From Lachnospiraceae bacterium 28-4 (GTDB taxonomy: Bacteria; Bacillota; Clostridia; Lachnospirales; Lachnospiraceae), in contig KE159598.1 of NCBI GenBank assembly GCA_000403275.2, forward strand, positions 1,473,722-1,537,721: DNA of 64,000 nucleotides, given 5' to 3'. Below are positions 14,231-38,470 of the stretch, piece after piece. How positions within the stretch are numbered: position 1 is the first letter of the stretch; each line of letters begins with the position of its first letter. Position numbers and translations under genes: made by a program. The notes under the pieces were generated by a model that was given only the letters and a program-made list of their open reading frames with translations, was not told the origin of the DNA and made no database searches.

Positions 14231-14591
14231 AATCCAGGAATCGCTTTTTCCAGACAGTACGACCCTCCCAAACGGGGATGGAAAACGGAAAGGACTGGGG
14301 CAGGACGGAAGGGGATAACATTTTCCGCTGGAGCTTTCCATTAGATTTCACTAATGAAATGGTAAAAGTGAATCAAACCAGTCGGGACGGAAGCAACGGA
14401 CATCCTGTCCATGCTTCCTAAATTGCCATCCATGGCAATTTCCCTTTAGGTTTTTGACCATTTCATAAGTGAAATTACTAATGGAAAGCAACAGCGGAAA
14501 ATGTTATCCCCTTCCGTCCTGCCCCAGCCCTTTCCGTTTTCCATCCCCGTTTGGGAGGGTCGTACTGTCTGGAAAAAGCGATTCCTGGATT
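14231..14591. repeat. Very long inverted repeat with structured centre (LIR-1)
   Basis: The 100-bp arms 14231-14330 and 14492-14591 are complementary with one mismatch. Pairing then continues imperfectly inward for about 30 bp. The centre holds three hairpins: TGGT (14360-14363) with ACCA (14377-14380) around AAAAGTGAATCAA; GGAAGCA (14389-14395) with TGCTTCC (14412-14418) and inner GGACA/TGTCC; and a 10-bp stem 14420-14429/14432-14441 with loop CC. No open frame of note lies inside. It begins 8 nt after the LacI stop and ends 82 nt before tRNA-Trp. It shares core features with LIR-2. Confidence 0.95.
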
Positions 14592-14614
14592 CCACTCTTT
14601 ATAGAAAATATTTC

Positions 14615-14643
14615 TTGCTATCTTCTCACCTTTATGCTATAAT
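14615..14643 (+). promoter_or_regulatory. Promoter for tRNA-Trp
   Basis: TTGCTA, a 17-bp spacer and TATAAT end 30 bp before the tRNA. It separates the tRNA unit from the long inverted repeat upstream. Confidence 0.7.
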
Positions 14644-14673
14644 AATTTTCGGCGGTTGAGAACTGTCATAAAT

Positions 14674-14744
14674 AGGGGCATAGTTCAAAGGTAGAACAGT
14701 GGTCTCCAAAACCATCGATGTGGGTTCGATTCCTACTGCCCCTG
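14674..14744 (+). tRNA. tRNA-Trp (anticodon CCA)
   Basis: A full cloverleaf can be drawn. The acceptor stem AGGGGCA pairs with TGCCCCT, the D stem GTTC with GAAC, and the anticodon stem GTGGT with ACCAT around loop CTCCAAA (anticodon CCA at 14706-14708). The T arm contains GTTCGAT. The discriminator is G, as expected for tRNA-Trp. The 3' CCA is not encoded (CTTCTT follows) and must be added after transcription. Confidence 0.97.
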
Positions 14745-14764
14745 CTTCTTAAATAAGGCAAAAG

Positions 14765-14797
14765 GCGCTGATAATTGATTTGTCAGTGCTTTTTTTA
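14765..14797 (+). terminator. Terminator after tRNA-Trp
   Basis: The stem GCGCTGA / TCAGTGC (7 bp, one G-U) is followed by seven or eight T. It lies about 20 nt after the tRNA. Confidence 0.75.
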
Positions 14798-14860
14798 TAA
14801 ATGTGTTCTTTCCCTGTAAGGACGCGCCGGGAAATTTTCTGTTCTAAAGGAGACTGGCTT

Positions 14861-15373
14861 ATGAAAAAAATATATAAAAAGATATATCCCATTATCATTG
14901 TATTCTTGTTGATCTTTCTGGATCAGGCTGCCAAACTATCAGCCGCTGACCGTTTGAAAGGGCAGCCGGACTATCCTCTTCTTTCCGGTATTCTTGAATT
15001 TTCCTATCTGGAAAATACAGGAGCCGCTTTCAGTTCTTTTATGGGGAAGCAGGGCTTCCTGATTACGTTGACAACATGCGCCATGCTTTTTCTCATCGTT
15101 AAGTACTGGCAGATCCCGAAAGCCGAAAATAACCGGTATCTGCCGATGCAAGCGTCCATGCTCCTCATTATCGCCGGAGGAATCGGAAATCTGATCGACC
15201 GGATCGCAAATGGGTACGTCATAGACTTTATTTACTTCGTACCCATTGATTTCCCCAAATTCAACATTGCCGACTGCTATGTCTGTATCGGAATGGCCGC
15301 ATTTGCCTATATCAGCTTTTTTTACTATAAAGAAGAGGAACTGGACTTCCTCTTTACTTTGAAAGGGAAGTAA
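14861..15373 (+). CDS. lspA: Lipoprotein signal peptidase (signal peptidase II)
   Basis: 170 residues from the ATG at 14861, which has AAAGGAGA upstream; earlier in-frame starts add a non-conserved leader. It has four membrane helices. The aspartyl protease signature is present: FLDQAAK near the N-terminus, LENTGAAFS, GGIGNLIDRI and NIADCYVCIG. The catalytic Asp pair is in NLIDRI and NIAD. It cleaves the signal peptide of prolipoproteins at the modified Cys. Lipoprotein substrates encoded in this window include the TPR lipoprotein, PotD and the DUF4430 protein. It converges with the ABC exporter genes, with only 6 bp between stop codons. Confidence 0.95.
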   Translation: MKKIYKKIYPIIIVFLLIFLDQAAKLSAADRLKGQPDYPLLSGILEFSYLENTGAAFSSFMGKQGFLITLTTCAMLFLIVKYWQIPKAENNRYLPMQASMLLIIAGGIGNLIDRIANGYVIDFIYFVPIDFPKFNIADCYVCIGMAAFAYISFFYYKEEELDFLFTLKGK

Positions 15374-15379
15374 ACAGCA

Positions 15380-17128
15380 TTATACCGCAAACTGGCTGTG
15401 GTACAGTTCCGCATAAAAGCCTCCCTTTTCCAGCAGCGACTCATGATTTCCCTGTTCTATGATATTTCCATCCTTCATCACCAGTATAATATCCGCCTCC
15501 TGTATTGTAGAAAGCCTGTGGGCGACGATAAAACTGGTTCTTCCTTCCATCAGCTTTGCAAAAGCATTCTGTATTTTCAGCTCCGTCCTCGTATCGATGG
15601 ATGACGTCGCTTCATCCAGAATCAGCATATCCGGCTGGCAAAGCATTACTCTTGTAATACATAAAAGCTGCTTCTGCCCTTGGGATAGATTGCCCCCATC
15701 TTCTGCAACTACCGTATCATATCCTTCCGGCAGACGCTTGATAAAACTATGGGCATGAGCAGCCTTAGCCGCCTCAATAATTTCTTCTTCTGTCGCATCC
15801 GGCCTTCCCATCGCAATATTTTCCCGTATAGTCCCCGTTTTCAACCATGTCTCCTGTAATACCATGCCATAGGCGGTACGCAGACTCTTTCTCGTTACAT
15901 CCCGTATATCTGTTCCTTCCACCCGTATGCTTCCTTCATCCACATCGTAAAACCGCATCAAAAGATTAATAATCGTTGTCTTGCCGCATCCGGTAGGGCC
16001 GACAATCGCTACCCTCTGTCCCGGTTTTACAGACAAATTAAATCCCCGGATCAGCTTTTTATCCGGCACATAGGAAAAAGAAACATTTTCCAATGTTACA
16101 TTTCCTCTCACATCTTTCAGTTCCAGGGCGTCCTCCGCATCCGGTATCTGAGGCTCCTCTTCCATCAGTTCAAAAATCCTCCCCGCACATGCAAGAGCAT
16201 TCTGCAGCTCCGTAATTACGCCGGATATTTCGTTAAAAGGCTTCGTATACTGGTTCGCATAAGTCAGCAGGCAGGAAAGCATCCCAACGCTGATCCCTCC
16301 CCGAATGGCAAACAAAGCCCCCGTAATACCCACTCCCGTATAAACCAGGCTGTTGACAAAACGAGTAGCCGGATTGGTAATGGAAGAAAAGAAAATAGCC
16401 TGTAACGAACATTTCTGCAATCTTTCATTGATTTCATCAAAACGTTCCATCGCATTCTCTTCATATCCGAAAGCCTGTACCACTCTCTGCCCGCCTACCA
16501 TTTCATCGATCAGCGCCGTCTGCTCCGCCCTCGTCTCGGACTGCCGCCGGAACATATGGAAGGTTTTCTTCGCAATAAAATTCGCTACCAGAAAAGATAC
16601 CGGGGTAATGCAGACTACCACCGCCGTGATCCCTATGTTGATCGTCAGCATAATCGCCAGAGTACCAAGAATCGTAACAACTCCGGTAAATAACTGGGTA
16701 AATCCCATCAAAAGCCCGTCGGCAAACTGATCCACATCTGCAATAACCCGGCTGACCACCTCTCCGTAAGAATTGGAATCAATATATTTCAAAGGCAGCT
16801 TCTCTATTTTTCGGAAAGCCTCATTTCTGATATCCCGGACAATTCCATAGGTCATCTTATTATTGCATACGTTCATCAACCACTGGGCAGCGGCCGTCAC
16901 ACCAATCGCTATGGCCATTTTTTCCAAAATAACCATGATCCCCTGAAAATCCACCAATCCTTTTCCAATGATCAAGTCAATGGCATCTCCCGTCAGGATA
17001 GGGAGATACAATGTCAACGCCACCGTAAGCGCCGCCATCAGGATAGATACTCCCAGATAAATCCAATATCTTCTGATATATCCCATCACTTGAAACAGAA
17101 TATCCTTCTGACTTTTTCTGCCCTTCAT
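15380..17128 (-). CDS. ABC exporter half-transporter (catalytically competent Walker B partner)
   Basis: 582 residues: six-helix transmembrane domain (about 1-310) followed by a nucleotide-binding domain. Walker A is GPTGCGKTT, Walker B MLILDEATSSID with the catalytic Glu, and the H-loop FIVAHRLSTI. The C-loop is NLSQGQKQ rather than LSGGQ. With the upstream partner this forms a heterodimeric exporter of the BmrCD/LmrCD kind. These move drugs, lipids or peptides outward; the cargo is not evident. Its ATG overlaps the partner's TGA (ATGA), which implies translational coupling. Confidence 0.93.
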   Translation of the reverse strand: MKGRKSQKDILFQVMGYIRRYWIYLGVSILMAALTVALTLYLPILTGDAIDLIIGKGLVDFQGIMVILEKMAIAIGVTAAAQWLMNVCNNKMTYGIVRDIRNEAFRKIEKLPLKYIDSNSYGEVVSRVIADVDQFADGLLMGFTQLFTGVVTILGTLAIMLTINIGITAVVVCITPVSFLVANFIAKKTFHMFRRQSETRAEQTALIDEMVGGQRVVQAFGYEENAMERFDEINERLQKCSLQAIFFSSITNPATRFVNSLVYTGVGITGALFAIRGGISVGMLSCLLTYANQYTKPFNEISGVITELQNALACAGRIFELMEEEPQIPDAEDALELKDVRGNVTLENVSFSYVPDKKLIRGFNLSVKPGQRVAIVGPTGCGKTTIINLLMRFYDVDEGSIRVEGTDIRDVTRKSLRTAYGMVLQETWLKTGTIRENIAMGRPDATEEEIIEAAKAAHAHSFIKRLPEGYDTVVAEDGGNLSQGQKQLLCITRVMLCQPDMLILDEATSSIDTRTELKIQNAFAKLMEGRTSFIVAHRLSTIQEADIILVMKDGNIIEQGNHESLLEKGGFYAELYHSQFAV

Positions 17129-18879
17129 CGCGCCTTTCCCTCCTTCTTGAACTGGGAATCATAAATCTCCCTGTAGACTCCGCAGCTTTGCAGCAGTTCC
17201 CCATGGGTTCCCATACCAGCCACTTCTCCGTCGTCCATCACGATAATAAAATCCGCATACTGTATGGAAGAAGCTCTTTGGGATACGATAAACACCGTAA
17301 TCTCTTCATCCATCTCCCGAATTGCCTTCCTGAGCCTGGCATCCGTAGCAAAGTCAAGGGCCGATGCACTATCGTCCAAAATGAGGATTTCCGGTTTACG
17401 AATCAGCGCCCGGGCGATCGTCAGCCTTTGCTTCTGGCCTCCGGAAAGGTTCTTTCCTCCTTGGGCAACCTGTGCTTCCAGTCCTCCCTCCTTCGTTTCC
17501 ACAAACTCCTTTGCCTGTGAAATCTCCAATGCACGCCACATTTCCTCCTCCGTGGCATCTTCCTTCCCCCATAGCAAATTTTCCCTGATCGTTCCTTTAA
17601 AAAGAACTGCTTTCTGCATAACCATGCCGATTTTTCCGCGCAATTCCTCCAGCGGATATTCCTTCACATCGATCCCGTTTATTTTCACGCTCCCCCTTGT
17701 CGCATCATAAAACCGTGGAATCAGATGGACAATGGAAGATTTTCCCGAGCCCGTTCCGCCTATAATGCCGATGGTCTGCCCCTTACGCACCCGGAAGCTG
17801 ATATCTGTCAGGGATTCCGCTCCCGCATTTTTATAAGTAAGGCCTACGTGTTCAAAGCTAACCGCCTCTGCCTTATCATTTTCCATGTTTCCTTTTTCAT
17901 CCGCTCTTTTTACCGGCTGTCCGGCATCCCCAATCCCCGGTTTTGTTTCAAAGATATCCTGAATGCGGTTGGCACAGGCAAAGGCTTTTGTCACCGTAAT
18001 GATCAAGTTCGCCAGCTTGATCAGTTCCACCAATATCTGAGACATATAATTGACCAGCGCAACGACTTCGCCCTGGGTAATATAGCCCTGATCCACCTGC
18101 CATGCGCCTGTTTGGATGAGGACGATCACCGCCCCGTTAATAATAATATAAGTCAAAGGATTCATCAGAGCAGATATCCGTCCTACAAACATCTGCATTT
18201 TCGTCAGATCCCTGTTGCCTTCTTCAAAGCCGCGAATCTCCGTTTCTTCTTTATTGAAAGCGCGCACCACTCTGGCTCCGGTCAGATTTTCCCTCGTGAT
18301 TTTCAGTATTCTGTCCAGACCTGCCTGGACTTTCTTATACAGCGGCATACTGATCAGCATAATCCCAAATACTACTACACACAGCAAGGGAATCGTCACC
18401 GTAAAGACCATTGCTGATTTCACATCGATAGTAAATGCCATCACCATCGCTCCTGCCACGATAAAGGGCGAACGGAGGAAAAGGCGCAAGATCAGGTTTA
18501 CGCCGGACTGTACCTGGTTTACATCGCTCGTCATTCTGGTAATCAGCGTGGATGCTCCGATCTCATCCATTTCCGAAAAAGACAACGACTGGATATGGGC
18601 AAACAGGGAATGTTTCAACTGCGCCGAAAATCCCACAGCCGCCTTTGCCGCAAAATATTGGGCGGTAATCGAACAGACGAGGCCGATAATGCCCAATGTT
18701 ATCATAATGAGACTCATTCGAAAAATAAATCCTCCGTCCGCCCCGGCAATTCCCCTGTCGATGATCTGCACCATCACAAGTGGAACCAGCAGTTCGAAGG
18801 AGGCCTCCAGCATTTTAAAAAGAGGCGCCAGCACTGTCTCCTTTTTGTAGCCTTTTAAATATACCATTAACTTTCCCAT
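17125..18879 (-). CDS. ABC exporter half-transporter (degenerate nucleotide site partner)
   Basis: 584 residues from the ATG at 18879 (MGKLMVYLKGYKKETVLAPL). GAGGAG is nine bases upstream, overlapping the radA stop. The frame extends to 18993 without support. It has a six-helix transmembrane domain, then Walker A GGTGSGKSS, C-loop NLSGGQKQRL, Walker B ILILDDSASALD with Asp in place of the catalytic Glu, and FIVSQRASSI with Gln in place of the H-loop His. Both losses mark the degenerate site of heterodimeric exporters. It pairs with the following gene, whose ATG overlaps its stop. Confidence 0.93.
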   Translation of the reverse strand: MGKLMVYLKGYKKETVLAPLFKMLEASFELLVPLVMVQIIDRGIAGADGGFIFRMSLIMITLGIIGLVCSITAQYFAAKAAVGFSAQLKHSLFAHIQSLSFSEMDEIGASTLITRMTSDVNQVQSGVNLILRLFLRSPFIVAGAMVMAFTIDVKSAMVFTVTIPLLCVVVFGIMLISMPLYKKVQAGLDRILKITRENLTGARVVRAFNKEETEIRGFEEGNRDLTKMQMFVGRISALMNPLTYIIINGAVIVLIQTGAWQVDQGYITQGEVVALVNYMSQILVELIKLANLIITVTKAFACANRIQDIFETKPGIGDAGQPVKRADEKGNMENDKAEAVSFEHVGLTYKNAGAESLTDISFRVRKGQTIGIIGGTGSGKSSIVHLIPRFYDATRGSVKINGIDVKEYPLEELRGKIGMVMQKAVLFKGTIRENLLWGKEDATEEEMWRALEISQAKEFVETKEGGLEAQVAQGGKNLSGGQKQRLTIARALIRKPEILILDDSASALDFATDARLRKAIREMDEEITVFIVSQRASSIQYADFIIVMDDGEVAGMGTHGELLQSCGVYREIYDSQFKKEGKAR

Positions 18880-18893
18880 CTCATTCCGCTCCT

Positions 18894-20300
18894 CTATATC
18901 AGATCGATGGCATCCCGTACCGATTTCACACCGATTATTTTTATCCCCTCTTGATTTTTTATTCCTTTCAGACAAACCGCCGGCACCACGCACGAATGAA
19001 ATCCCAGCTTCTTAGCTTCCAGCACTCTTTGCTCCGCCATGCTCACCGCCCGCACTTCCCCGCTCAGTCCTACCTCTCCGAATACAATCATTTTATCGTC
19101 CACCGCACGGTTCTTAAAGCTGGAAACTACCGCCATCACGATTCCCAGATCGATAGCCGGTTCCATAATTTTGATGCCTCCGGCAAGATTCACATAAGCA
19201 TCACAACCCGACAGCTGCAATCCCGCCCTCTTTTCCAGCACCGCCATTAAAAGGTTGACCCTGTTAAAATCCGTGCCTGTCGCCTGCCTTCTCGGAATCC
19301 CAAAATTGCTGCCGCATACAAGAGCCTGTATCTCGATCAATATGGGCCTTGTGCCCTCCATAGAACACGCCACTATGGATCCGCTGGCTCCCTCCGGCCT
19401 TCCCTCCAGCATAAATTCCGACGGGTTTTTTACCTCTGTCAGACCTTCTTCCCGCATCTCGAACACACCGATCTCATTCGTCGATCCAAACCTGTTCTTC
19501 ACCCCTCTGAGAATGCGGTAAGAAGCGTGCCTGTCTCCTTCAAAATAAAGCACGGCATCCACCATATGCTCCAAGACTCTAGGCCCCGCCACCGTTCCTT
19601 CCTTCGTCACGTGCCCTACGATGAAAATGGACACGTTCATTCCCTTGGCAAGCTGTAAAAAGACTCCAGTAGCCTCCCTTACCTGGGACACGCTTCCCGG
19701 TGCCGCAGATATTTCTTCGCTGTACATCGTCTGTATGGAATCGATCACCACCATACAGGGGCAGATATGCAATATCGCTTCTTCGATAATATCCAGATTG
19801 GTTTCGCAAAGCAGCAGCAAATCATCGCCGAACTCCCCGATCCGTTCCGCCCTTATTTTTATCTGCTTTAAGGATTCCTCTCCTGATATATATAATACTT
19901 TCTGCCCCTTATTTACCAATTTTTGGCATACTTGCAGCAACAGAGTGGATTTTCCTATGCCGGGATCCCCTCCTACCAGCGTCAGGGAACCAGGAACGAT
20001 CCCGCCTCCCAACACTCTGTCCAGTTCTTCCATTCCCGTACCGATTCTTTCCCCGTCGTCCATGACAACCTCGGAAAGCCTGGATGCCTCCCCTGCCCGG
20101 CCTGATCCTATCGCTCCGGTTCTAACCGGCCCTACCGCTCCAGCCCTAACCGGCACTCCGTTTCTTTTGCTTCTAATACTCATTTTTTCTTCTACAAAAG
20201 AATTCCACGTTTTACAACCCGGGCATTGCCCCATCCATTTTACCGATTCATATCCACATTCCTGACAAAAAAATACGGCTGTATTTTTAGCCTTTGCCAT
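18894..20300 (-). CDS. radA: DNA repair protein RadA (Sms)
   Basis: 468 residues. It has an N-terminal four-Cys zinc finger (Cys12, Cys15, Cys26, Cys29), a RecA-like ATPase with GGDPGIGKST, the RadA-specific GVKNRFGSTNEIG motif and a C-terminal Lon-like domain (VNLAGGIK, DLGIVMAV, FGEVGLSGEVR). RadA is a DnaB-like helicase that helps branch migration in recombination and repair. The linker after the zinc finger holds an unusual short repeat rich in Gly, Ala, Val and Arg (VRAGAVGPVRTGAIG). The start has GGAGGAGGA upstream. Its position downstream of clpC resembles the Bacillus clpC-radA order. Confidence 0.96.
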   Translation of the reverse strand: MAKAKNTAVFFCQECGYESVKWMGQCPGCKTWNSFVEEKMSIRSKRNGVPVRAGAVGPVRTGAIGSGRAGEASRLSEVVMDDGERIGTGMEELDRVLGGGIVPGSLTLVGGDPGIGKSTLLLQVCQKLVNKGQKVLYISGEESLKQIKIRAERIGEFGDDLLLLCETNLDIIEEAILHICPCMVVIDSIQTMYSEEISAAPGSVSQVREATGVFLQLAKGMNVSIFIVGHVTKEGTVAGPRVLEHMVDAVLYFEGDRHASYRILRGVKNRFGSTNEIGVFEMREEGLTEVKNPSEFMLEGRPEGASGSIVACSMEGTRPILIEIQALVCGSNFGIPRRQATGTDFNRVNLLMAVLEKRAGLQLSGCDAYVNLAGGIKIMEPAIDLGIVMAVVSSFKNRAVDDKMIVFGEVGLSGEVRAVSMAEQRVLEAKKLGFHSCVVPAVCLKGIKNQEGIKIIGVKSVRDAIDLI

Positions 20301-20335
20301 TCCTTCCTCCTCCTCTTACTATTGGCCTGGCGCAA

Positions 20336-20376
20336 GGAAAACGGGACTTTCATATATTGATGACCGTCCCGTTTCC
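20336..20376 (-). terminator. Hairpin between radA and the small beta-rich gene, possible terminator
   Basis: GGAAAACGGGAC pairs with GTCCCGTTTCC across an 18-nt loop. There is no long T tract immediately after it in the minus direction, so it may only partly stop transcription or may protect the 3' end. Confidence 0.45.
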
Positions 20377-20435
20377 ATAAAAAACACTTTTTTACCCAAA
20401 GCAGCTCTTTGTCGAAAGCACACTTTCAAAGTCTA

Positions 20436-20846
20436 TTATTTTTCCACTCTGACGTTCACTTCCCCGTCTCCGCTGAGTTCCACGCTTAAGTTCAGTTTCC
20501 CTCCCAAATTCGTACGCATCTTGCCAATGCTTTCGTTATTTATAAATACTTCATATTCCGTTTCATCCTGCAGTCCTACGGTAATCTGCGCATCCTCGCT
20601 GCCCTCCACCGTAAAGCTGATGCCATCCTGCGTCTCCTGAAAACAGTTTACGCTCGTGCCCGGCACCGACTCATAAACGAACATTCCGTTCTTTTCAAGC
20701 TTTGTCATCGTCTTATAAGTCTTTACCTTCCAAAGATCTCCACCGAATTCAAAGTCAACCAATTTCGCTTTTTCCTCCAGTTTGTGATTGCCAAAACTGA
20801 TTGCGCCCCCGTCCTCTCCGCGGAGTAATTCTTCCACCACTGCCAT
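20436..20846 (-). CDS. Small beta-rich conserved protein (sometimes labelled endosialidase)
   Basis: 136 residues, beginning MAVVEELLRGEDGGAISFGN. Conserved-looking blocks are NGMFVYESVPGTSVNCF, a run of beta strands with ISFTVEGSEDAQITVGL, and a C-terminal MRTNLGGKLNLSVEL. There is no signal peptide or membrane segment. From memory, relatives in Lachnospiraceae carry the automatic name endosialidase; I see no catalytic motif supporting that activity and would treat the function as unknown. AGGAGG lies upstream of the ATG. It lies between clpC and radA on the same strand and may be co-transcribed with clpC. Confidence 0.8.
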   Translation of the reverse strand: MAVVEELLRGEDGGAISFGNHKLEEKAKLVDFEFGGDLWKVKTYKTMTKLEKNGMFVYESVPGTSVNCFQETQDGISFTVEGSEDAQITVGLQDETEYEVFINNESIGKMRTNLGGKLNLSVELSGDGEVNVRVEK

Positions 20847-20921
20847 TTCTTATGTCCTCCTAAAACTCTTATATGCTTTCCTTTGCGCATTCTATAGTAC
20901 AGTATAATATATTTTCCCAGT

Positions 20922-23381: not shown

Positions 23382-23755
23382 TCGATTCCTCCATAATCTT
23401 CATATATTTCATCAATAAGAGCATGTACTTCTTCTCTGGAAATATTCTTACAGCTTACTTTTGCAAGAATAACTTTTAATTCCTTCCGAAGTTCTCTTAT
23501 TGTTTCCGCGCGGTCCGTGTCAATAGCGATCACTGCACCCCTGCGCCGGTCTACCTTTACAAACCCCTCCTGTTTTAGAACGGCATACGCCTTATTCACC
23601 GTATGCATATTAATGCCGATATCCCCTGCTAACTGTCTCACTGAGGGCAATTCATCTCCTTCTCTGATCCTGGCCGTCGCGATCCCGAGAATAATCTGGT
23701 TTCTAAGCTGTAAGTACAAGGCTTCATCGCTGTTAAAATCAATTTCTATTATCAT
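23378..23755 (-). CDS. Short GntR-family (YtrA-like) transcriptional regulator
   Basis: 125 residues. The N-terminal winged helix is clear: IEIDFNSDEALYLQLRNQII, REGDELPSVRQLAGDIGINM, HTVNKAYAVLKQEGFVKVDR, then RRGAVIA. The C-terminal tail is only about 50 residues, the size of YtrA-subfamily effector domains. It overlaps clpC by four bases, so both come from one message. It sits where CtsR sits in Bacillus and could be an autoregulator of clpC. Upstream, a TATAAT around 23814-23819 (minus) with nearby repeats CTGTATACC and CTGTATC may be promoter and operator. Confidence 0.9.
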   Translation of the reverse strand: MIIEIDFNSDEALYLQLRNQIILGIATARIREGDELPSVRQLAGDIGINMHTVNKAYAVLKQEGFVKVDRRRGAVIAIDTDRAETIRELRKELKVILAKVSCKNISREEVHALIDEIYEDYGGID

Positions 23756-23886
23756 ATACCGATATCCGCTTTCCTTCCCTCAGGCATTCCACTGTTCCAT
23801 ATATTAACTATATAATTATAACAGATACAGGGTATACAGGCTTTCCCATATACCCCATTCCTTTATCCGGCCTTTTCGTAAAGGCA

Positions 23887-27174: not shown

Positions 27175-27821
27175 GAAACACCACTATCCTTTCTGTTTTT
27201 TAAGATTCTGCACCTGTTATCCTTTATTTCCACCCGGCCATTCGCTATCGCATCGACAGCCTCCGGCAACAGTATCCATTCAGCCTCTTCCATAACCCGC
27301 CTCTGCAATATTTCCGGCGTATCGCCTTCCATGATTTCCACCGGTTTCTGCAGCAGAATCGGACCGGTATCCGTGCCTTCATCTACAAAATGCACCGTCG
27401 CCCCGGTGATTTTTACACCTCGGTTCAGCGCGCCTTCGTGCACCTTCATCCCGTAATATCCTGTCCCACAAAAAGACGGGATCAGCGAAGGATGTATATT
27501 AATAATTTTATTCGTGTATTCCGCAATCATTTCCTTCGGAATCACCACAAGGAATCCTGCCAGCACGATAAGATCCGGTTCCGCCTCCCTTACGGCTTCC
27601 AACAGCGCCTTATGGAATGCCTCCCTGTCCGCATAATCCTTCGGAGAGATACATACTCCCGGAATATGATTTTCCTCTGCCCGTTTTAACGCATAAGCGT
27701 CTCTGTTGTTGCTGATCACCCGTACAATTCCGGCATTGTTGATACGGCCCTCTTTTATACCGTCGATCATTGCCTGGAGATTTGTTCCGCCGCCGGAGAC
27801 GCACACGACTACTCTCAGCAT
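27171..27821 (-). CDS. purN: Phosphoribosylglycinamide formyltransferase (folate dependent)
   Basis: 216 residues. It has [18 protein letters not shown] at the start, and the catalytic and folate regions [12 protein letters not shown] and [22 protein letters not shown] with the essential Asn/His/Asp set (N-I-HPSL, and D in VDEGTD). It transfers a formyl group from 10-formyl-THF to GAR. It overlaps purM by 7 bp and purD by 4 bp, which implies translational coupling. GGGGTAG lies upstream of its ATG. Confidence 0.97.
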
Positions 27822-28840: not shown

Positions 28841-28863
28841 TCCTTTTTCCTCCGCCCGCTTCT

Positions 28864-29370
28864 TTATTTCATATAACCTTTATAGCCCAATTCCTGAAGT
28901 TTTTCATCTTTTGCCTGTACGCTATCTTTCAAAGAACTGCTGTAATCCTTCAGCTTTTTCAACAACTCCTCATCGGAAACGGCGAGTATCTTCGCTGCCA
29001 GAATACCCGCGTTGGCTCCGCCGTTAATCGCCACCGTCGCTACCGGAATCCCTGACGGCATCTGAACGATGGAATAAAGGGAATCCCTACCTCCTAAAGA
29101 AGTGGTATGCATTGGAATACCGATCACCGGCATGGGAAAAATTGCCGCGCACATGCCCGGCAGATGGGCCGCCATGCCCGCTCCCGCGATAATTACCTTA
29201 AATCCCTTTTCTTCCGCCATATTCGCATATTCAAAAAACACATCCGGCTCTCTGTGAGCCGAAATAATCCTCATTTCATAAGAAATCCCCAATTCATCCA
29301 AAACCTGGGCGGCCTTTGCCATAACCGGCATATCCGAATCGCTTCCCATTACAATCCCAACCCTTGCCAT
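28864..29370 (-). CDS. purE: N5-carboxyaminoimidazole ribonucleotide mutase
   Basis: 168 residues from the ATG at 29370 ([17 protein letters not shown]), with AAAGGAG upstream; the open frame to 29406 is not family-like. [23 protein letters not shown] and the [15 protein letters not shown] block fit PurE. No purK is beside it, so I cannot say whether it acts as the bacterial class I mutase or in a PurK-independent way. First gene of the purEMND run. The 90-bp gap upstream holds no purine riboswitch that I can see. Confidence 0.95.
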
Positions 29371-29460
29371 AACCGTTTTATCTCCTTTAAACATATATTG
29401 TTCCATTTCTTAGTTTACTAAAAAATGTTTTCACACGCAACCCATATTTTCGCATATTTT

Positions 29461-31530: not shown

Positions 31531-31554
31531 ACCGCTGTTCCGCTCCTGTTCCAC

Positions 31555-31893
31555 TTATATTCCGGCATATAAAATAAAACTAATCATCGCAAGGCAAAGC
31601 ACGTTCAGCCCTATGCCCAAATGGGGAAACAAATAATAGTTATCCTTCTCTATTCTGGACAATATGCCGAGTACCAACCCTGCTATGGAAAAAAGAGTGA
31701 CAAGAAATACGGCGGCCCCATACTGCGGCAGCGCATCCCCTCCGTTCCTGTATGCCAGATAGACTGCGGCTCCCACCGAAAGAATCGAAAGCGTGCCCAA
31801 AATCGTTGACATAATTCCCTTTTCCGGGTGCTTCCGTACCGTAAATATATAACCGCTTCTCTTTTTTCCCTTGCGGCCTTTTTTCTGAACCAT
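31555..31893 (-). CDS. Small membrane protein (DUF6142-like)
   Basis: 112 residues from the ATG at 31893, chosen because GGAGG lies 13 nt upstream. An ATG at 31905 sits too close to the same site, and the frame is open to 31959. A basic N-terminus (QKKGRKGKKRSG) is followed by three membrane helices (STILGTLSILSVGAAVYLAY, AAVFLVTLFSIAGLVLGIL, GIGLNVLCLAMISFILYAG). It resembles what I recall as DUF6142, but that name is uncertain. No catalytic residues are evident. It sits between a tiny membrane protein gene and the aminopeptidase. Confidence 0.7.
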   Translation of the reverse strand: MVQKKGRKGKKRSGYIFTVRKHPEKGIMSTILGTLSILSVGAAVYLAYRNGGDALPQYGAAVFLVTLFSIAGLVLGILSRIEKDNYYLFPHLGIGLNVLCLAMISFILYAGI

Positions 31894-31964
31894 TTTAACA
31901 GCCATGCCTCCATTATCGTTTAATCTCCGAATGGGCATTCCTTTTCCGGAAATGCCCACCCTTG

Positions 31965-32117
31965 CTAAAACAGTATCTTTGATTTGCTCGAAAGCAGCTT
32001 CGCTCCGCTTATAATCAGAAGAACTCCTCCTGTAATCCCGGCCACCAGGGTGACTACTCCCACTACAATATTCAAAGCTCCCGAGCCGCTCATGGTCTTA
32101 TATATTTTTTCTTCCAT
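31965..32117 (-). CDS. Small hydrophobic membrane protein, 50 residues
   Basis: Opens at the ATG complementary to 32115-32117 with an excellent ribosome site (GGAGGAAGGG) and ends at TAG (31965-31967). The sequence starts MEEKIYKTMSGSGALNIVVG and has one or two hydrophobic stretches (IVVGVVTLVAGITGGVLLII), then a Ser/Lys tail. It lies between pyrE and the next small membrane protein gene on the same strand. No function can be assigned. The strong start signal and the fit into the gene spacing make it likely to be real. Confidence 0.75.
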   Translation of the reverse strand: MEEKIYKTMSGSGALNIVVGVVTLVAGITGGVLLIISGAKLLSSKSKILF

Positions 32118-32141
32118 GCCCTTCCTCCATTCCTGTTTTCC

Positions 32142-32819
32142 TTATTCTCTTGCGCCGTATTGCTTATAGTATGCGTCGATCGACGCCTTACATTCATCAT
32201 CAATATATATTGTACCATGATACGGTCTGCCATACAAATATTCCACTACCTCTCCCATCGTTACGATGGCATTAGCATCAAATCCGTATTTTTCCTTGAT
32301 TTCCTGCAGCGCGCTCATTTCTCCCTGTCCCTTTTCCATACGGTTCAAGGATACCATAAGCCCTTTGATCTCCACGTCCGCCTGTGCCTTCAATATAGGA
32401 AACGTTTCTTCAATCGACTTGCCAGAGGTAGTCACATCCTCTATGATTACGACCCTGTCTCCATCCTTTAATTTGCTTCCTAAAAGAATGCCGGTATCGC
32501 CATGGTCTTTCTCTTCCTTCCGGTTAGAACAATATTTTACATCTTTGCCGTATAACTCACTGATCGCCATAGCCGTTGCCACACTGAGCGGAATTCCCTT
32601 ATATGCGGGGCCGAACAGTACATCGAAATCCAAACCGTAGTTGTCATGAATCGCCCTGGCATAATATTCTCCCAGTTTCCTTAACTGCGTTCCCGTCACA
32701 TATCCCCCGGCATTCATAAAAAAAGGGGATTTGCGCCCGCTTTTCAAAGTAAACTCTCCGAATTTCAGCACCTGGCTGTCTACCATAAATCGAATAAATT
32801 CCTCTTTATACTGTTCCAT
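32142..32819 (-). CDS. pyrE: Orotate phosphoribosyltransferase
   Basis: 225 residues from the ATG at 32819 (MEQYKEEFIRFMVDSQVLKF) with GGAGG eleven bases upstream; an in-frame ATG at 32861 lacks support. Family motifs are FTLKSGRKSPFFMNAG, FGPAYKGIPLS, YCSNRKEEKDHG (flexible loop) and the PRPP-binding VVIIEDVTTSGKS. It makes OMP from orotate and PRPP, the substrate of PyrF encoded just upstream. Confidence 0.96.
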   Translation of the reverse strand: MEQYKEEFIRFMVDSQVLKFGEFTLKSGRKSPFFMNAGGYVTGTQLRKLGEYYARAIHDNYGLDFDVLFGPAYKGIPLSVATAMAISELYGKDVKYCSNRKEEKDHGDTGILLGSKLKDGDRVVIIEDVTTSGKSIEETFPILKAQADVEIKGLMVSLNRMEKGQGEMSALQEIKEKYGFDANAIVTMGEVVEYLYGRPYHGTIYIDDECKASIDAYYKQYGARE

Positions 32820-32950
32820 ATATCCGTAATCCTCCGCGTCACAGGTTTTATCTATTATCATTTATCATTCCATTGCGAAATATTTCCCCAATTTTACCAT
32901 ATTTACTATTAGGGTGCAACCGTTATGCATCCCGTTACAACCTGTTATAT

Positions 32951-33880
32951 TCACCCTCTCCGGTTCAAAGCAGACATAATGTCGTCTCTCATATCTTCCA
33001 CCGCCGCGCGGGCCGCTTCTCCAAAATGCTGCGCTCCGAACTTCGCGTATTTTTCCTGCTGATAAGCCGCAATAATTCCTCTGGAAGAATTGACAATAGC
33101 TCCCAGACCGTCTTCATGGAAGAAATCCACAAGATCCTCTCCTTTTCCCCCCTGAGCGCCATAGCCGGGTACGAGAATATATGCCTTAGGCATGATCCGG
33201 CGCAATACTCTTCCCATCTCCGGATAAGTCGCGCCTACCACTGCACCCACATAGCTGTAGGAATCCCCCATGCAGGATTCGCCCCATTCAGCCACCTTTT
33301 CTCCGACAATCTCATACAAAGGCCGTCCATCCGCCAAACGATCCTGAAATTCGCCGCTGCTTGGATTAGACGTCTTCACCAAAATGAAAACCCCCTTCTT
33401 TTCCTGTTTGCACACATCGATAAAAGGCTTTATGCCGTCTGTGCCGAAATAAGGATTTACCGTGGCAAAATCTTCATCAAAACCTGCATAAGATTTCCCC
33501 CCGACCTGGACTCTTCCCAGATGCCCGACCGCGTAGGCTTTGGAAGTGGAGCCGATATCGCCCCTTTTGATGTCTCCGATCACGACAAGATCTTTTTCCT
33601 TGCAATAATCCAACGTTTTCTTAAAAACCTTAAGCCCTTCCAGGCCAAACTGTTCATACATCGCAATCTGAGGCTTCACTGCCGGAATCAAATCCCAGAT
33701 ATGATCAATGATTTCCTTATTAAACTGCCAGACAGCCTCCGCTGCCCCCTCCAACGTCTCGCCAAACTCCTGATACGCCTTCCGGGCAATATGTTCCGGG
33801 ATATAATCCAGCATAGGATCCAGTCCCACCACCACAGGGGCTTTCGTTTTTTTAATTTTTTCCGTCAGTTTTTGAATCAT
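32951..33880 (-). CDS. pyrF: Orotidine 5'-phosphate decarboxylase, long (type 2) form
   Basis: 309 residues, the length of the type 2 PyrF group. It contains VVVGLDPMLDYIPEHI, KPQIAMYEQFGLEGL, LVIGDIKRGDIGSTSKAYA (catalytic Asp-x-Lys-x-x-Asp) and VPGYGAQGGKGEDL with a phosphate-binding SSRGI near the C-terminus. It converts OMP to UMP. GAGGAG lies upstream of the ATG. It follows the Nudix-like gene by 21 bp and precedes pyrE by about 130 bp. Confidence 0.96.
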   Translation of the reverse strand: MIQKLTEKIKKTKAPVVVGLDPMLDYIPEHIARKAYQEFGETLEGAAEAVWQFNKEIIDHIWDLIPAVKPQIAMYEQFGLEGLKVFKKTLDYCKEKDLVVIGDIKRGDIGSTSKAYAVGHLGRVQVGGKSYAGFDEDFATVNPYFGTDGIKPFIDVCKQEKKGVFILVKTSNPSSGEFQDRLADGRPLYEIVGEKVAEWGESCMGDSYSYVGAVVGATYPEMGRVLRRIMPKAYILVPGYGAQGGKGEDLVDFFHEDGLGAIVNSSRGIIAAYQQEKYAKFGAQHFGEAARAAVEDMRDDIMSALNRRG

Positions 33881-33901
33881 TCCTTTTCTCCTCTTATCCC
33901 T

Positions 33902-34300
33902 CTATAGTTCCAAACCTTCCAAATCATTCAGCACATATTTATTCTCAATATACTCCGGAAACTGGTCTCTTTCCACCCATTCCCATTCCCCATATTCTTC
34001 TCCAAGTATAATGCTGCTGTCATCTTCCAGAGAGCAGATATAAGCGATTCCCACGCATTGGGAATCTCCGATCATATTGGACCATGTATAAACAATGCGT
34101 TCTATTCTTCCTTCCACCGAAAGAATTTCCTCAATCGCCCTGATGACAGCCTCGTCAGGCGCCTCCCCGTAGTTCACTTCCGCATCCACGAACTCCCATA
34201 AAAACGGATCCGGGATCCTGTCGTCCACCCATCTTTTGATCAAAAGATATTTGTCATCCTGCTTAATGATGCCTTTTACCCTTAAATAAATATTTTCCAT
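33902..34300 (-). CDS. Nudix-like protein with degenerate Nudix box
   Basis: 132 residues. The fold pattern fits Nudix: a first strand LRVKGIIKQDDKYLLIKRW, then FLWEFVDAEVNYGEAPDEAV and IRAIEEILS at the box position, and WEWVERDQFPEY near the end. The canonical G-x5-E-x7-REUXEE is altered: the first Gly is replaced, RE reads RA, and the EE pair reads EI. Metal binding may be weak or lost. AAAGGAG precedes the ATG by eleven bases. It lies between nrdD and pyrF on the same strand, so a nucleotide-linked role is tempting but unproven. Confidence 0.75.
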   Translation of the reverse strand: MENIYLRVKGIIKQDDKYLLIKRWVDDRIPDPFLWEFVDAEVNYGEAPDEAVIRAIEEILSVEGRIERIVYTWSNMIGDSQCVGIAYICSLEDDSSIILGEEYGEWEWVERDQFPEYIENKYVLNDLEGLEL

Positions 34301-34337
34301 CTCTTTTCGTACTCCTTTCCCCTGATCTGAATTTGAT

Positions 34338-36731
34338 TTATGAAATAGAAGATTGTACTACAGCATCCATATACTTCCTTATGTTTGAAACATTAACGTA
34401 CTTTTTAAAATCGTCTCCGTTTACAACTACCAGCGTAGGCGCCTGCATGACTCCATACCTGTACGCCAGCTCCGTATTTTCTTCTGCATCTATCGTCACA
34501 TACTGTTCCCCCTGCAAATATTCCTTTGCCAGCTTACAGTTGGGACATGTTTTTGTCGTAAAGAGATACTTTATATTTTCCGGCCGTTTTATCTTTACAT
34601 CCGCCCTTTCAGCCTTCCCTGACAGCGTCACAAGGCTCGCCGACGGCCGCTTCAGGCAGGAATTCTCCGCGTCGTATTCCTTGCGGTTTGCATATTCCTG
34701 GAGTTTTCCATCGTTCCAGTTCTGTACCGGCCGGTAATATCCGGTAATACGGCTGTATACCTCCGTCGCCTTGCCGCAATGCGGGCATATTTTTTTCTCC
34801 CCTGCCAGGTATCCGTGCTGCCGGCAGATCGAATAAGTCGGCGACATCGTATAATAGGGCAGCCTGTAATTCTCGGCAATCGTTCTGACCAGACCCGCCG
34901 CCGCCTTCCAGTCCGGCAGTTTTTCGCCCAAAAAAGCGTGGAACACCGTACCCGATGTATATAGAGTCTGAAGTTCGTCCTGAATATCCAGCGCATCAAA
35001 AATATCCGCCGTATAATTCACCGGAAGATGGGAGGAATTGGTATAGTAAGGCGTATCCCCCTCGCTTCCCGCCGTCTGAATACCGGGCCATCTTTTTTTA
35101 TCATGCTTCGCCAGACGATAAGCCGTGCTTTCTGCCGGAGTAGCCTCCAGATTATACAAATCCCCGTACATTTCCTGATAATCGGAAAGCCGGTTCCTCA
35201 TATGGTTCAATACTTCTTTTACAAACTCCTGGGTCTTCCCGTCGCTCAAATCCGCCCTGAGCCAGTTGGCATTCAGGCCCGCTTCGTTCATCCCCACCAG
35301 TCCGATCGTTGAAAAATGATTATTAAAATTCCCCAGATAACGCTTCGTGTAAGGATAGAGCCCTTCTTCCAGAAGCTTCGTTATCACTCCCCTCTTGATT
35401 TTCAGGGAGCGGGCGGCAATATCCATCATCCGGTTCAACCGTCTGTAAAAATCATCCTTATTCGCGGACAGATACGCCAGACGCGGCATATTGATCGTTA
35501 CTACGCCTACGCTTCCGGTGCTTTCGCCGGAACCGAAGAAGCCTCCCGTCTTTTTTCTCAATTCTCTCAAATCCAGCCGCAGTCTGCAGCACATGCTGCG
35601 CACATCCCCTGGTTCCATATCCGAATTAATATAGTTGGAAAAATATGGAGTTCCGTATTTTGCTGTCATTTCAAACAGCAGCCGGTTGTTTTCGTTGTCC
35701 GACCAGTCAAAATCCCTGGTAATGGAATAGGTAGGAATAGGATATTGAAATCCCCTTCCATTGGCGTCCCCGTCTATCATCGTTTCGATAAACGCCTTAT
35801 TTACCATATCCATTTCTTTTTTACAGTCTTTATATTTAAAATCCATCTCCCTGCCGCCCACGATCGCCGGCAGTTCCGCCAGATCATCCGGCACGGTCCA
35901 ATCCAGGGTAATATTGGAAAAAGGAGCCTGTGTCCCCCACCGGCTGGGCGTATTCACGCCATAAATAAAAGATTCAATACATTTTTTCACTTCCGGGTAA
36001 GCCAGGCCATCCACCTTAACAAAAGGAGCCAGATAGGTGTCAAAAGAAGAAAATGCCTGTGCGCCCGCCCATTCATTCTGCATAATCCCAAGAAAGTTTA
36101 CCATCTGATTGCATAAAACGGAAAGATGCGCCGCCGGAGCGGATGTGATCTTGCCTGTAATGCCGCCCAGCCCTTCCTGTATTAACTGCTTCAGCGACCA
36201 GCCGGCGCAATAACCGGTCAGCATGGAAAGATCGTGAATATGGATATCCGCGTTCCTGTGCGCCTCCGCAATCTCGTTATCATAGATTTCCGAAAGCCAG
36301 TAATTCGCCGTAACCGCCCCGGAGTTGCTCAGGATCAGCCCCCCGACCGAATACGTTACCGTGGAATTTTCTTTTACCCGCCAGTCCTCTACCTTTACAT
36401 AGCTGTTCACCACGTCTTTATAATCGAGGATCGTAGATTTCATATTGCGCATCTTCTCCCTCTGTTTGCGATAAAGGATAAATGCTTTTGCCGTCTCCGC
36501 GTACCCCGCCTGTTCCAGCACCTTTTCCACGCTGTCCTGAATGTCTTCCACATGGACTCTCCCATCCCTTACTTTGCCTTGGAATTCCGCCGTTACACGC
36601 AGCGCCAATAAATCCACGATATCGTTCGTATATTGCATATCCGTCGCCTGAAAGGCTTTTATAATGGCATCGTTGATTTTAACCAACGTAAAATCCGCAA
36701 CTTCGCCATCTCTTTTAATTACATGAAACAT
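34338..36731 (-). CDS. nrdD: Anaerobic (class III) ribonucleoside-triphosphate reductase with fused glutaredoxin-like domain
   Basis: 797 residues from the ATG at 36731 (MFHVIKRDGEVADF) with GGGAGG five bases upstream. It has an N-terminal ATP-cone (about 1-95), the glycyl-radical catalytic domain with TNSSHLPVNY, a C-terminal zinc site (CRQHGYL...CPHCG) and the radical-bearing RITGYYRP. After this, residues about 720-797 form an extra glutaredoxin/thioredoxin-like domain with a CPNC redox motif (Cys729, Cys732) and the cis-Pro segment QAPTLVVV. NrdD makes dNTPs without oxygen; the fused domain may supply reducing equivalents. The activase gene nrdG is not adjacent. Confidence 0.95.
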   Translation of the reverse strand: MFHVIKRDGEVADFTLVKINDAIIKAFQATDMQYTNDIVDLLALRVTAEFQGKVRDGRVHVEDIQDSVEKVLEQAGYAETAKAFILYRKQREKMRNMKSTILDYKDVVNSYVKVEDWRVKENSTVTYSVGGLILSNSGAVTANYWLSEIYDNEIAEAHRNADIHIHDLSMLTGYCAGWSLKQLIQEGLGGITGKITSAPAAHLSVLCNQMVNFLGIMQNEWAGAQAFSSFDTYLAPFVKVDGLAYPEVKKCIESFIYGVNTPSRWGTQAPFSNITLDWTVPDDLAELPAIVGGREMDFKYKDCKKEMDMVNKAFIETMIDGDANGRGFQYPIPTYSITRDFDWSDNENNRLLFEMTAKYGTPYFSNYINSDMEPGDVRSMCCRLRLDLRELRKKTGGFFGSGESTGSVGVVTINMPRLAYLSANKDDFYRRLNRMMDIAARSLKIKRGVITKLLEEGLYPYTKRYLGNFNNHFSTIGLVGMNEAGLNANWLRADLSDGKTQEFVKEVLNHMRNRLSDYQEMYGDLYNLEATPAESTAYRLAKHDKKRWPGIQTAGSEGDTPYYTNSSHLPVNYTADIFDALDIQDELQTLYTSGTVFHAFLGEKLPDWKAAAGLVRTIAENYRLPYYTMSPTYSICRQHGYLAGEKKICPHCGKATEVYSRITGYYRPVQNWNDGKLQEYANRKEYDAENSCLKRPSASLVTLSGKAERADVKIKRPENIKYLFTTKTCPNCKLAKEYLQGEQYVTIDAEENTELAYRYGVMQAPTLVVVNGDDFKKYVNVSNIRKYMDAVVQSSIS

Positions 36732-36821
36732 CCTGACCTCCCTGGTACCTATAAAACAACCTTTGCCGTGATCGCAAATTGCCAATGCAAATTAGAAGTT
36801 CTTCTCGCACCACATATGGGA

Positions 36822-36850
36822 ATTGTATCATCCGCCCAATCAAAAGTCAA
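36822..36850 (-). promoter_or_regulatory. nrdD promoter
   Basis: On the minus strand TTGACT and TACAAT are separated by 17 bp, about 90 bp before the nrdD start. Two NrdR-like boxes lie directly upstream. Confidence 0.75.
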
Positions 36851-36856
36851 CAAAAT

Positions 36857-36904
36857 GCACAAGATATCCCGTCAACATTTTTATGCAGACACAACATCTT
36901 GTGC
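36857..36904 (-). promoter_or_regulatory. Pair of NrdR-like boxes upstream of nrdD
   Basis: ACACAACATCTTGTGC (36889-36904) matches the known NrdR box ACACWATATATWGTGT at 13 of 16 positions. A weaker copy, GCACAAGATATCCCGT, lies at 36857-36872. Their starts are 32 bp apart, three helical turns, as in known tandem NrdR boxes. This predicts NrdR repression of nrdD. Confidence 0.6.
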
Positions 36905-36912
36905 TATCTCTA

Positions 36913-37962
36913 TTACCGTGTTTTTAAAAATGTATACTCCCTCTGTGCCGCCGCATCATCGGGATACGTGGACAAATAACTGTTCATCAGGCTCGCCGCC
37001 GTCTGGTACTGCCCCAGTCTTTCATAAGTGACGATTTCGTTAAATTTCAGTGTCTGCATGATCGTACAGTTTTCCACATTCATTCCTGCCTGGAATGCCA
37101 TAAGAGCTTCGTCATATGCTTTCAGCTCCATTTTACACAGGCCAAGGCGGTTATATACGCTGGCATTCGTCTGGTCGCCTTCTATAAAGCTGCTATAGAC
37201 GCTGATCGCATAATTAAGGTCGCCGAGTTCTTCATAGGTCTGCCCCAATAAAAGAACCGCCTCAACCCCTTCCGACTTCCTGGCTTTTTCCAAATAATTC
37301 CTGGCATTATCGTAATCTTCCAGATAATAATAGATCCTGCCCCTCTGATAATCGGTCATAGTCTTCGTATCGCTGGCAAGAGCCGTCTGAAAATACTCCT
37401 GTCCCGCCTCTTTATAACCGTTCCTTTCCAACACCAGATAGATATCGATCAGCTGGTCGTAATCCTCCGCTGCCAAAGAAATCGCCTTGTCAAAATCCGC
37501 CTTTGCCTTCTCATAATCGTCGGCAATCCTCACGCTTCCCCTCAGGCGGTAAGCCAGCCTGTCCTTCGGGTTCATGGCTATAATCGCATTGTATGCGCCA
37601 ATACTGCTATTGCTATCCCCCATCTTGTAATATGCAACGGCTAAATAATAATTGATATCATAATCGATCTCATCCACCCGCCCGCTGCCGGAACCGAGCG
37701 CTTTCCCAAAAGCTTCCACCGCCTTATCGTATTGGGTCAGCCCCATATAAGCAAGCCCCTGGCCTCTATATAAAAGCCGCAGATCTTCTCCGTCCACCAT
37801 CGCCTTATCAAAGCATTGCAGCGCCCCCACATAATCGAGAGCCGCCACTGCCGCCATTCCCTCATCAATGGAAGGCGTCTTGCTTCCTCCGCATCCGCCC
37901 AGCATGACCGCAGCCAAAAGCGCCGCTAAGACAACCGTATTTTTTCCTTTTCGTCCTCTCAT
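36913..37962 (-). CDS. TPR-repeat lipoprotein
   Basis: 349 residues from the ATG at 37962, which has AGAGG upstream and is followed at once by a lipoprotein signal (VVLAALLAAVMLGGC, lipid-modified Cys24). The longer frame to 38070 has no signal at its start. The mature part is a series of about eight tetratricopeptide repeats (for example LGDLNYAISVYSSFIEGDQ, LKAYDEALMAFQAGMNVE). Such proteins hold complexes together on the outer face of the membrane. Partner unknown. It stands alone between nrdD and a long inverted repeat. Confidence 0.88.
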   Translation of the reverse strand: MRGRKGKNTVVLAALLAAVMLGGCGGSKTPSIDEGMAAVAALDYVGALQCFDKAMVDGEDLRLLYRGQGLAYMGLTQYDKAVEAFGKALGSGSGRVDEIDYDINYYLAVAYYKMGDSNSSIGAYNAIIAMNPKDRLAYRLRGSVRIADDYEKAKADFDKAISLAAEDYDQLIDIYLVLERNGYKEAGQEYFQTALASDTKTMTDYQRGRIYYYLEDYDNARNYLEKARKSEGVEAVLLLGQTYEELGDLNYAISVYSSFIEGDQTNASVYNRLGLCKMELKAYDEALMAFQAGMNVENCTIMQTLKFNEIVTYERLGQYQTAASLMNSYLSTYPDDAAAQREYTFLKTR

Positions 37963-38046
37963 CCTCTGTCCTCTTCCCGCTATCCCTATCTCCCGCCAGT
38001 TCCCCTTACCAAATATACTACTATATTTTATGTATCCAGACAAGCC

Positions 38047-38470
38047 CTCTTCCTGAAGAACGGGAATCAATTTTGGCAGCCTGGGCAGCAGACAGAAGGG
38101 AGCGGGAAGAGAGCGGCAAAGAACGGGCAGAAGGCCGCCGGGCTGGGGGCTTGGCAGGTATATTTTCGCAGCTGCTTTGTGCAGGGAAATGAGATTTTCT
38201 TAATATTCCGTTCAGAGAGCAGCAATTTGGTGACACGGATGTCACTAAAAGCCCGCAATGAGCCCGGACGGCGAATAGCGGGCGGTTGCGTCCGGTTGAT
38301 ACCACTTTACCGGAATATTTAGAAAATCCATTTTCCGAAGCCAGCACAAGAAAATATACCTGCCAAGCCCCCAGCCCGGCGGCCTTCTGCCCATTCTTTG
38401 CCATTCTCTTCCCGCTCCCTTCTGTCTGCTGCCCAGGCTGTCAAAATTGATTCCCGTTCTTCAGGAAGAG
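38047..38470. repeat. Very long inverted repeat with structured centre (LIR-2)
   Basis: The 121-bp arms 38047-38167 and 38350-38470 are complementary with four mismatches. A second imperfect stem (GATTTTCT-AATATTCCG and partner) continues inward. Read on the minus strand, the centre has hairpin TCCGGT / ACCGGA around AAAGTGGTATCA (38291-38314), a GCCCGC / GCGGGC stem with a competing CCGGACG / CGTCCGG, and hairpin GTGACA-TCCG-TGTCAC (38230-38245). No coding frame is evident. It starts 21 nt after the rubrerythrin stop. The whole non-coding gap 37963-38491 is mostly this element. Confidence 0.95.

Follow-up and report, generated by a model that had tools for sequence, protein, structure and literature searches.

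The 64,000-nucleotide stretch of Lachnospiraceae bacterium 28-4 analysed here (contig KE159598.1, positions 1,473,722 to 1,537,721; the window) carries two very long inverted repeats, LIR-1 and LIR-2, and raises the question of what such repeats are and at which level, RNA or DNA, their arms are held complementary. From the comparisons described below, we consider it highly probable that LIR-1 and LIR-2 belong to a non-autonomous element, present in more than 60 copies, that resembles miniature inverted-repeat transposable elements (MITEs), with terminal inverted repeats (TIRs), a 9-bp target duplication, the structure named TwoAYGGAY at its centre and arms that are probably copied onto each other at the DNA level. 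A whole-window scan for inverted repeats gave scores of 105 and 109 for LIR-1 and LIR-2, 56 for a third long repeat, LIR-3, which was absent from the first-pass annotation of this DNA, and 16 for the next best. Together with folding z-scores of -31 and -30 for LIR-1 and LIR-2 against dinucleotide shuffles, these values rule out chance palindromes as the origin of the two repeats. The first-pass annotation had given arms of 100 and 121 bp with 97-99% self-complementarity; the repeats are present and the length of the LIR-2 arms stands, whereas the LIR-1 arms measure 114 nt and both pairs of arms are approximately 97% complementary.

In an Rfam 15 scan, the two cores, for which no described class had been recognized, were found to belong to the catalogued family TwoAYGGAY (RF01731), with E-values of 4.7e-10 for LIR-1 and 7.7e-20 for LIR-2 and bit scores (Table 1) above the gathering score of 43. 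LIR-1, LIR-2 and the family alignment all showed two terminal loops of the AYGGAY type, carried by covarying stems. The core had previously been read on the plus strand in LIR-1 (14360-14441) and on the minus strand in LIR-2 (38230-38314), whereas Rfam assigned LIR-1 to the minus strand and LIR-2 to the plus strand. In addition, the loop AAAAGTGAATCAA or AAAGTGGTATCA had been taken as the conserved element; in an alignment of 53 of the 62 copies from the same genome, this segment ranked with the most variable parts of the core, and conservation was seen in the inner stem and in the AYGGAY hairpins.

The prediction of a structured family with further copies was borne out by a covariance-model search of the strain's own genome (4.28 Mb, 7 contigs), which revealed at least 62 TwoAYGGAY matches, all above the cut-off, with 150 of the 166 candidates scored. 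Covariation of the stems, named beforehand as the test, was also observed, as 19 of the 24 predicted core pairs had changed on both sides among the 53 aligned copies. Further copies lay beyond the first search (for example, L073, L076, L077, L080, L081, L085 and L086), as did truncated ones. Among 61 genomes, the own genome included, TwoAYGGAY was found in 14, namely 12 of the 16 genus genomes and 2 genomes from elsewhere in the family; this survey used stricter filters and at most 38 scored candidates per genome, and its per-genome counts are low. Because draft contigs of the closest relative, G004 (C16, C29, C30, C75 and C96), start or stop at TwoAYGGAY elements, it is probable that these hairpins interrupt assemblies and that their number is underestimated. 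We also observed five close pairs of oppositely oriented copies among the 62 (C3:653045/653430, C1:1195130/1195564, C2:131313/131680, C1:1031191/1031554 and C3:333495/333827).

Shared ends and target duplications

The TwoAYGGAY unit behaves as a TIR transposon, with shared ends, a 9-bp target duplication, and filled and empty sites. The outer ends common to the family read CACGGAAATCAATTTT. With at most two mismatches, this pattern matched the own genome 93 times, compared with 2 matches for the reversed pattern; with at most one mismatch, it was present in 12 of the 16 genus genomes, and the reversed control gave 0. The 9-bp flanks were compared for 49 distinct elements whose ends lay within 2 mismatches on both sides and whose terminal bases were complementary at no fewer than 18 of 25 positions. 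On average, 5.92 of the 9 positions were identical, compared with 2.34 (standard deviation (sd) 0.21) for shuffled partners, a difference of approximately 17 sd; none of the remaining lengths between 6 and 12 bp exceeded approximately 5 sd (length 10). At least 8 of the 9 positions were identical in 20 of the 49 elements, and the duplication was exact in 6. Diverged copies, LIR-1 and LIR-2 were left out of this set; the build was established for the family, the ends of LIR-1 are diverged, and no target duplication of its own was visible at either LIR-1 or LIR-2.

Empty counterparts of both sites were found in relatives. The neighbours of LIR-2, encoding a TPR protein and rubrerythrin, were kept in 12 relatives, 11 of which, including G004, had no core between them, and the twelfth (G001, L142) carried an insertion of its own, flanked by the exact 9-bp duplication CCCTACTCG. 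At the LIR-1 site, three relatives (L124, L125 and L126) had the regulator gene beside the tRNA and no core. Additionally, the CACGGAAATCAATTTT ends were found to bound core-less elements of approximately 50-120 bp. One of them was L282 from G011, a genome in which no TwoAYGGAY was found; its interior is AT-rich, and it is flanked by a GAATAGTT repeat. Elsewhere, L072:1842-2224 showed the family ends and similar arms around an unrelated centre, and the G015 copies (L183-L191) had shorter arms (approximately 26-33 nt) and ends that differed from CACGGAAATC. A pair of ends 1.4 kb apart in G001 was considered as a candidate autonomous element and rejected, as it encloses a second small element and an open reading frame (ORF), which we take to resemble a ROK-type regulator.

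The tips of the core hairpins are themselves the target of an insertion sequence (IS). The own genome contained seven full, nearly identical copies of this 1.59-kb IS, which encodes a 440-aa transposase of the PF01609 type. Five of them (L288, L296, L299, L301 and L303) had inserted into a TwoAYGGAY element at the tip of its first AYGGAY hairpin; the 10-bp duplications beside them (CCATGGATGG, CCCTCCATGG twice, CCCTCCGTGG and CCATCCATGG) have the loop at their centre. The remaining two full copies were located elsewhere, and a truncated eighth copy started 14 bp from the core of K10. Since the IS targets the AYGGAY tips, it is probable that they are exposed in the form of DNA hairpins.

Upkeep of the arms

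Beyond the core, the arms of the 62 own copies had a median length of 92.5 bp (range 0-150; at least 15 nt in 61 copies), and a median of 95% of their pairs were Watson-Crick (at least 90% in 53 copies and 100% in 8). Across the 61 copies whose arms reach 15 nt or more, the median identity between the two arms of one copy was 96.6%. The best match in another copy that covered most of the arm had a median identity of 81% (34 copies), and 21 copies matched none. In particular, the LIR-1 arms had zero matches to other own-genome copies at E<1e-4, and the LIR-2 arms matched one other copy, which was not LIR-1; the arms of the two repeats are indeed unlike, as had been claimed. The 5' arms in the own genome were purine-rich, with a mean of 65%.

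If pairing were selected in the transcript, G.U pairs would be tolerated and A.C mismatches would not, which is the premise of the wobble test. The arm pairs of the 62 own copies comprised 5170 Watson-Crick, 99 G.U and 81 A.C (p = 0.20), and those of 59 further matches, some of which were extra or truncated own-genome copies, comprised 3368, 59 and 61, respectively (p = 0.93). These 59 were what remained of 70 after removal of 7 matches from six duplicate loci, 2 that scored below 30 bits and 2 lying at the ends of loci. In contrast, a small control of ten tRNAs from the fetched sequences gave 197 Watson-Crick, 15 G.U and 0 A.C. Arm covariation thus does not demonstrate an RNA, as G.U is not clearly above A.C, unlike in the tRNAs. 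The family had been described as structured RNA or single-strand DNA; the latter option fits well, whereas the arm covariation is no demonstration of RNA, and an RNA role is possible in the core.

In copies that share a site between G000 and G004, the cores were 80-88% identical and the arms 50-78% identical, with mirrored gaps, such as the 16 positions gapped in either arm of K53/L174. The BLAST flanks of these copies matched on both sides for K11/L162 and K22/L171, on the right only for K53/L174, and on the right and more distantly on the left for K58/L175. Paired changes were assessed in four pairs, of which K58/L175 had only 4 comparable positions and was uninformative; K22/L171 and K47/L157 were not counted. 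We found 17 complementary double changes in the arms of K11/L162 (2.1 expected if the sides were independent) and 6 single changes (27.5 expected), 13 double (1.3 expected) and 2 single (22.1 expected) in those of K53/L174, and 21 double (3.4 expected) and 1 single (24.8 expected) in the named pair L201/L204. Because there was no wobble bias, and orthologous arms showed both paired changes and mirrored indels, arm complementarity is probably kept at the DNA level, which agrees well with the earlier description of the arms as free-evolving yet actively kept complementary.

In three cases, the palindrome continued into the flank (12 bp at LIR-2, 15 bp at L072 and 14 nt at L201). On its right side, L201 repeats, in reverse complement, a stretch of the left flank that L204 has on the left only. 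Flank palindromes of this kind would be the expected product of template switching past the element end, the polarity being putative.

According to the mechanism that we propose, a typical element would have CACGGAAATCAATTTT ends, a 9-bp target duplication and the TwoAYGGAY structure at its centre, and the long arms between the ends and the core would evolve fast, copy by copy. One arm would be copied onto the other at the DNA level, by replication-fork template switching or within-hairpin conversion, and this copying might at times overrun the element end and turn host flank into new arm, as the three flank palindromes suggest. The tips, observed to be an IS target, would be exposed as DNA hairpins, and the mobilising transposase may be lost. 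Going further, TwoAYGGAY in these genomes may well be mainly a DNA device, namely the hairpin centre of a transposon, extruded or single-stranded, with hypervariable arms that template switching keeps rewriting into mirror images of each other, and with host flank captured as new arm; we hold this extension only tentatively. If it were true, the same arm behaviour around the unrelated core of LIR-3, described below, would point to a general process in this genome, and covariation alone could mislead RNA discovery.

Several points weigh against this account. G005, G009, G010, G012, G014 and G015 contain TwoAYGGAY and have 0 or 1 CACGGAAATCAATTTT match each, so the copies in these six genomes bear other ends, and approximately half of the TwoAYGGAY-bearing genus genomes are nearly without CACGGAAATCAATTTT ends. 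Fewer than 8 of the 9 duplicated bases match in 29 of the 49 elements, and duplication lengths of 8 and 10 also exceed the shuffles (approximately 4 and 5 sd), although far below length 9 (17 sd). No autonomous element with CACGGAAATCAATTTT ends was found among 30 of 32 PF01609 and 16 of 16 PF00872 matches in four genomes, other transposase families lying outside this search. The arms in which paired changes were counted had been delimited by their complementarity, a choice that favours such changes, and template switching is deduced from its products, as is the putative polarity of the flank extensions. Finally, the core helices lean to G.U, with 2594 Watson-Crick, 27 G.U and 15 A.C pairs (p 0.088) in 61 of the 62 copies when only pairs predicted on both strands were counted. 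When three one-strand pairs (12 G.U and 2 A.C), which derive from a fold that itself rewards G.U, were added, the counts became 39 and 17 (p 0.005). This lean is real enough that the core may have an RNA role.

RNA, DNA or both

The core raises the possibility, which we take seriously without thinking it probable, that the mobile DNA element has central hairpins that act as RNA when transcribed, as an mRNA-end stabiliser, a terminator or a protein sponge. The paired changes of the core and its G.U lean are consistent with such a double role, as is the better conservation of the core than of the arms in orthologous copies, although a protein site or a transposition site in DNA would equally be expected to conserve the core, and the fold from which the one-strand pairs were predicted treats G.U as pairing. 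The copies are also close to genes, with a median of 51-60 bp to the largest neighbouring ORF. When neighbours were assigned by this largest-ORF rule, however, 64 genes were sense and 60 antisense to the element, and no orientation bias of the copies that would speak for cis-regulation was found.

The same lack of orientation bias is one of several points that make it rather unlikely that TwoAYGGAY here is a true structured RNA, either cis-regulatory or a small RNA such as a CsrA sponge acting via the AYGGAY loops, with arms kept by selection on the transcript. Core covariation and the core G.U lean (27:15, or 39:17 with the one-strand pairs) favour this explanation, and the Rfam type of RF01731 is 'Cis-reg'. 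The discovery table of Weinberg et al. (2010, PMC2864571) grades the motif as 'probably' RNA and 'probably not' cis-regulatory, and a passage in PMC4333381 proposes it as a CsrA binder. CsrA was found in 28 of 41 genomes, the own genome included, and also in the element-less genus members G007, G011 and G013, while no CsrA match was obtained in the element-carrying G003, G010 and G014, which are drafts of 65-97% completeness. The CsrA distribution neither helps nor excludes the sponge idea. Transcript selection on the arms is at odds with their near-equal G.U and A.C counts (99:81 and 59:61, against 15:0 in tRNAs), and the TIRs, target duplications and mirrored indels also stand against it.

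Perfect arms could also be due merely to youth, with fold-back copying at insertion and no later correction. Although 8 of the 62 copies have 100% complementary arms, we regard this as a poor explanation, since copies that occupy one site in two species show joint divergence of their arms (double against single changes of 17:6, 13:2 and 21:1). Giant intrinsic terminators of upstream genes are very improbable: LIR-1 begins 8 bp and LIR-3 11 bp past a stop codon and a T run follows LIR-3, but gene starts face the elements as often as gene ends do (68 five-prime and 56 three-prime ends by the largest-ORF rule), and LIR-1 and LIR-2 lack a T run.

A second hairpin family and known systems

LIR-3 has an approximately 105-nt core that differs from the TwoAYGGAY core and had seven additional matches in the own genome, including a short one. 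In seven copies of this family, 478 of 482 ungapped arm pairs were Watson-Crick, 2 were G.U and 2 were A.C, and the 5' arms (38 to 99 nt) showed no mutual likeness at E<1e-4. At the Rfam gathering score, the window copy had no match, and six further copies matched only a neighbouring TwoAYGGAY. LIR-3 thus represents a second dispersed hairpin family of the same build, with another conserved core and copy-specific, nearly perfect arms. A hammerhead ribozyme, which has a conserved CUGAUGA core, was considered for LIR-3 and rejected, as the match of the window copy was weak (E 0.067) and most copies read CCGATGAG on that strand. Plant microRNA precursors, which LIR-1 and LIR-3 also matched, were set aside, as these matches fell short of the curated scores and reflect nothing more than the long hairpins. 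A search of LIR-1 against a plasmid collection gave no match, LIR-2 and the other copies lying outside that search. The two sides of the inner stem of LIR-1 (window 14345-14367 and 14453-14475; ATTTCAnnnnTGAAAT) are each a small palindrome, a form that a DNA-binding site could take.

Table 1. Positions of the inverted repeats and their parts in the window
Feature	Position	Strand	Remark
LIR-1 outer arm, left	14231..14344	none	ungapped, 114 nt
LIR-1 outer arm, right	14478..14591	none	ungapped, 114 nt
LIR-1 core, inner stem and two AYGGAY hairpins	14331..14491	-	TwoAYGGAY RF01731, 71.5 bits
LIR-2 arm, left	38047..38167	none	ungapped, 121 nt
LIR-2 arm, right	38350..38470	none	ungapped, 121 nt
LIR-2 core	38177..38343	+	TwoAYGGAY RF01731, 114.6 bits
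LIR-2 left TIR	38059..38074	+	2 mismatches to the family TIR
LIR-2 right TIR	38443..38458	-	2 mismatches to the family TIR
LIR-2, 12 bp beyond the left TIR	38047..38058	none	exact reverse complement of 38459-38470; palindrome extends past the element end
LIR-3 left arm	52113..52174	none	inverted-repeat scan
LIR-3 right arm	52273..52334	none	inverted-repeat scan
LIR-3 core, approximate limits	52166..52270	none	about 105 nt, differs from the TwoAYGGAY core
LIR-3 family loci	window 52113-52334; L065, L177-L182		

The highly probable reading of LIR-1 and LIR-2 as MITE-like elements has several consequences. It offers a likely identity for an RNA family of unknown function and cautions that compensatory changes alone are no proof of RNA. 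The symmetry of G.U and A.C mismatches provides a simple test that separates selection on RNA from copying at the DNA level. In addition, each genome would hold dozens of natural replicates of long palindromes with arms that diverge and yet remain matched, so that homogenisation by template switching could be tested in bacteria.

MITEs are bacterial non-autonomous TIR elements. The TwoAYGGAY elements resemble them in being short, in having TIRs and a fixed-length target duplication, in occurring in tens of copies beside genes and in having small core-less derivatives. Unlike in MITEs, the arms are long, hypervariable and re-matched in each copy, and no autonomous parent was found for the two transposase families in four genomes. 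Repetitive extragenic palindromic (REP) elements and REPINs are short tagged palindromes moved by a TnpA-REP (RAYT) enzyme, a mode of movement against which the 9-bp duplication argues. Like the REP palindromes into which IS elements insert (PMC1525189), the TwoAYGGAY core is a dispersed palindromic repeat that serves as a hot spot for one IS, although here the IS is of the PF01609 type and makes 10-bp duplications centred on the loop. The size also differs, as REPs measure 20-40 bp (PMC3733652), whereas most TwoAYGGAY elements are approximately 250-460 bp.

Template switching during DNA replication has been proposed, in a PNAS 2022 study (PMC8794818), to create stems and to mend their pairing via multi-base changes. 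That study concerned RNA genes, whereas the present case involves approximately 90-bp arms, a mobile element, wobble symmetry and palindromes that run into the flank. With the Rfam TwoAYGGAY, LIR-1 and LIR-2 share the core sequence, the inner stem and the two AYGGAY hairpins; unlike the listed RNA motif, the structure found here forms the middle of a larger unit, which also has TIRs, target duplications and, beyond the model, long arms. Passages on the motif in the openly available papers examined, to which this comparison was confined, do not mention its mobility, TIRs or target duplications. What was known is the Rfam motif; what is new is its reading as the core of a MITE-like element whose arms rewrite themselves.

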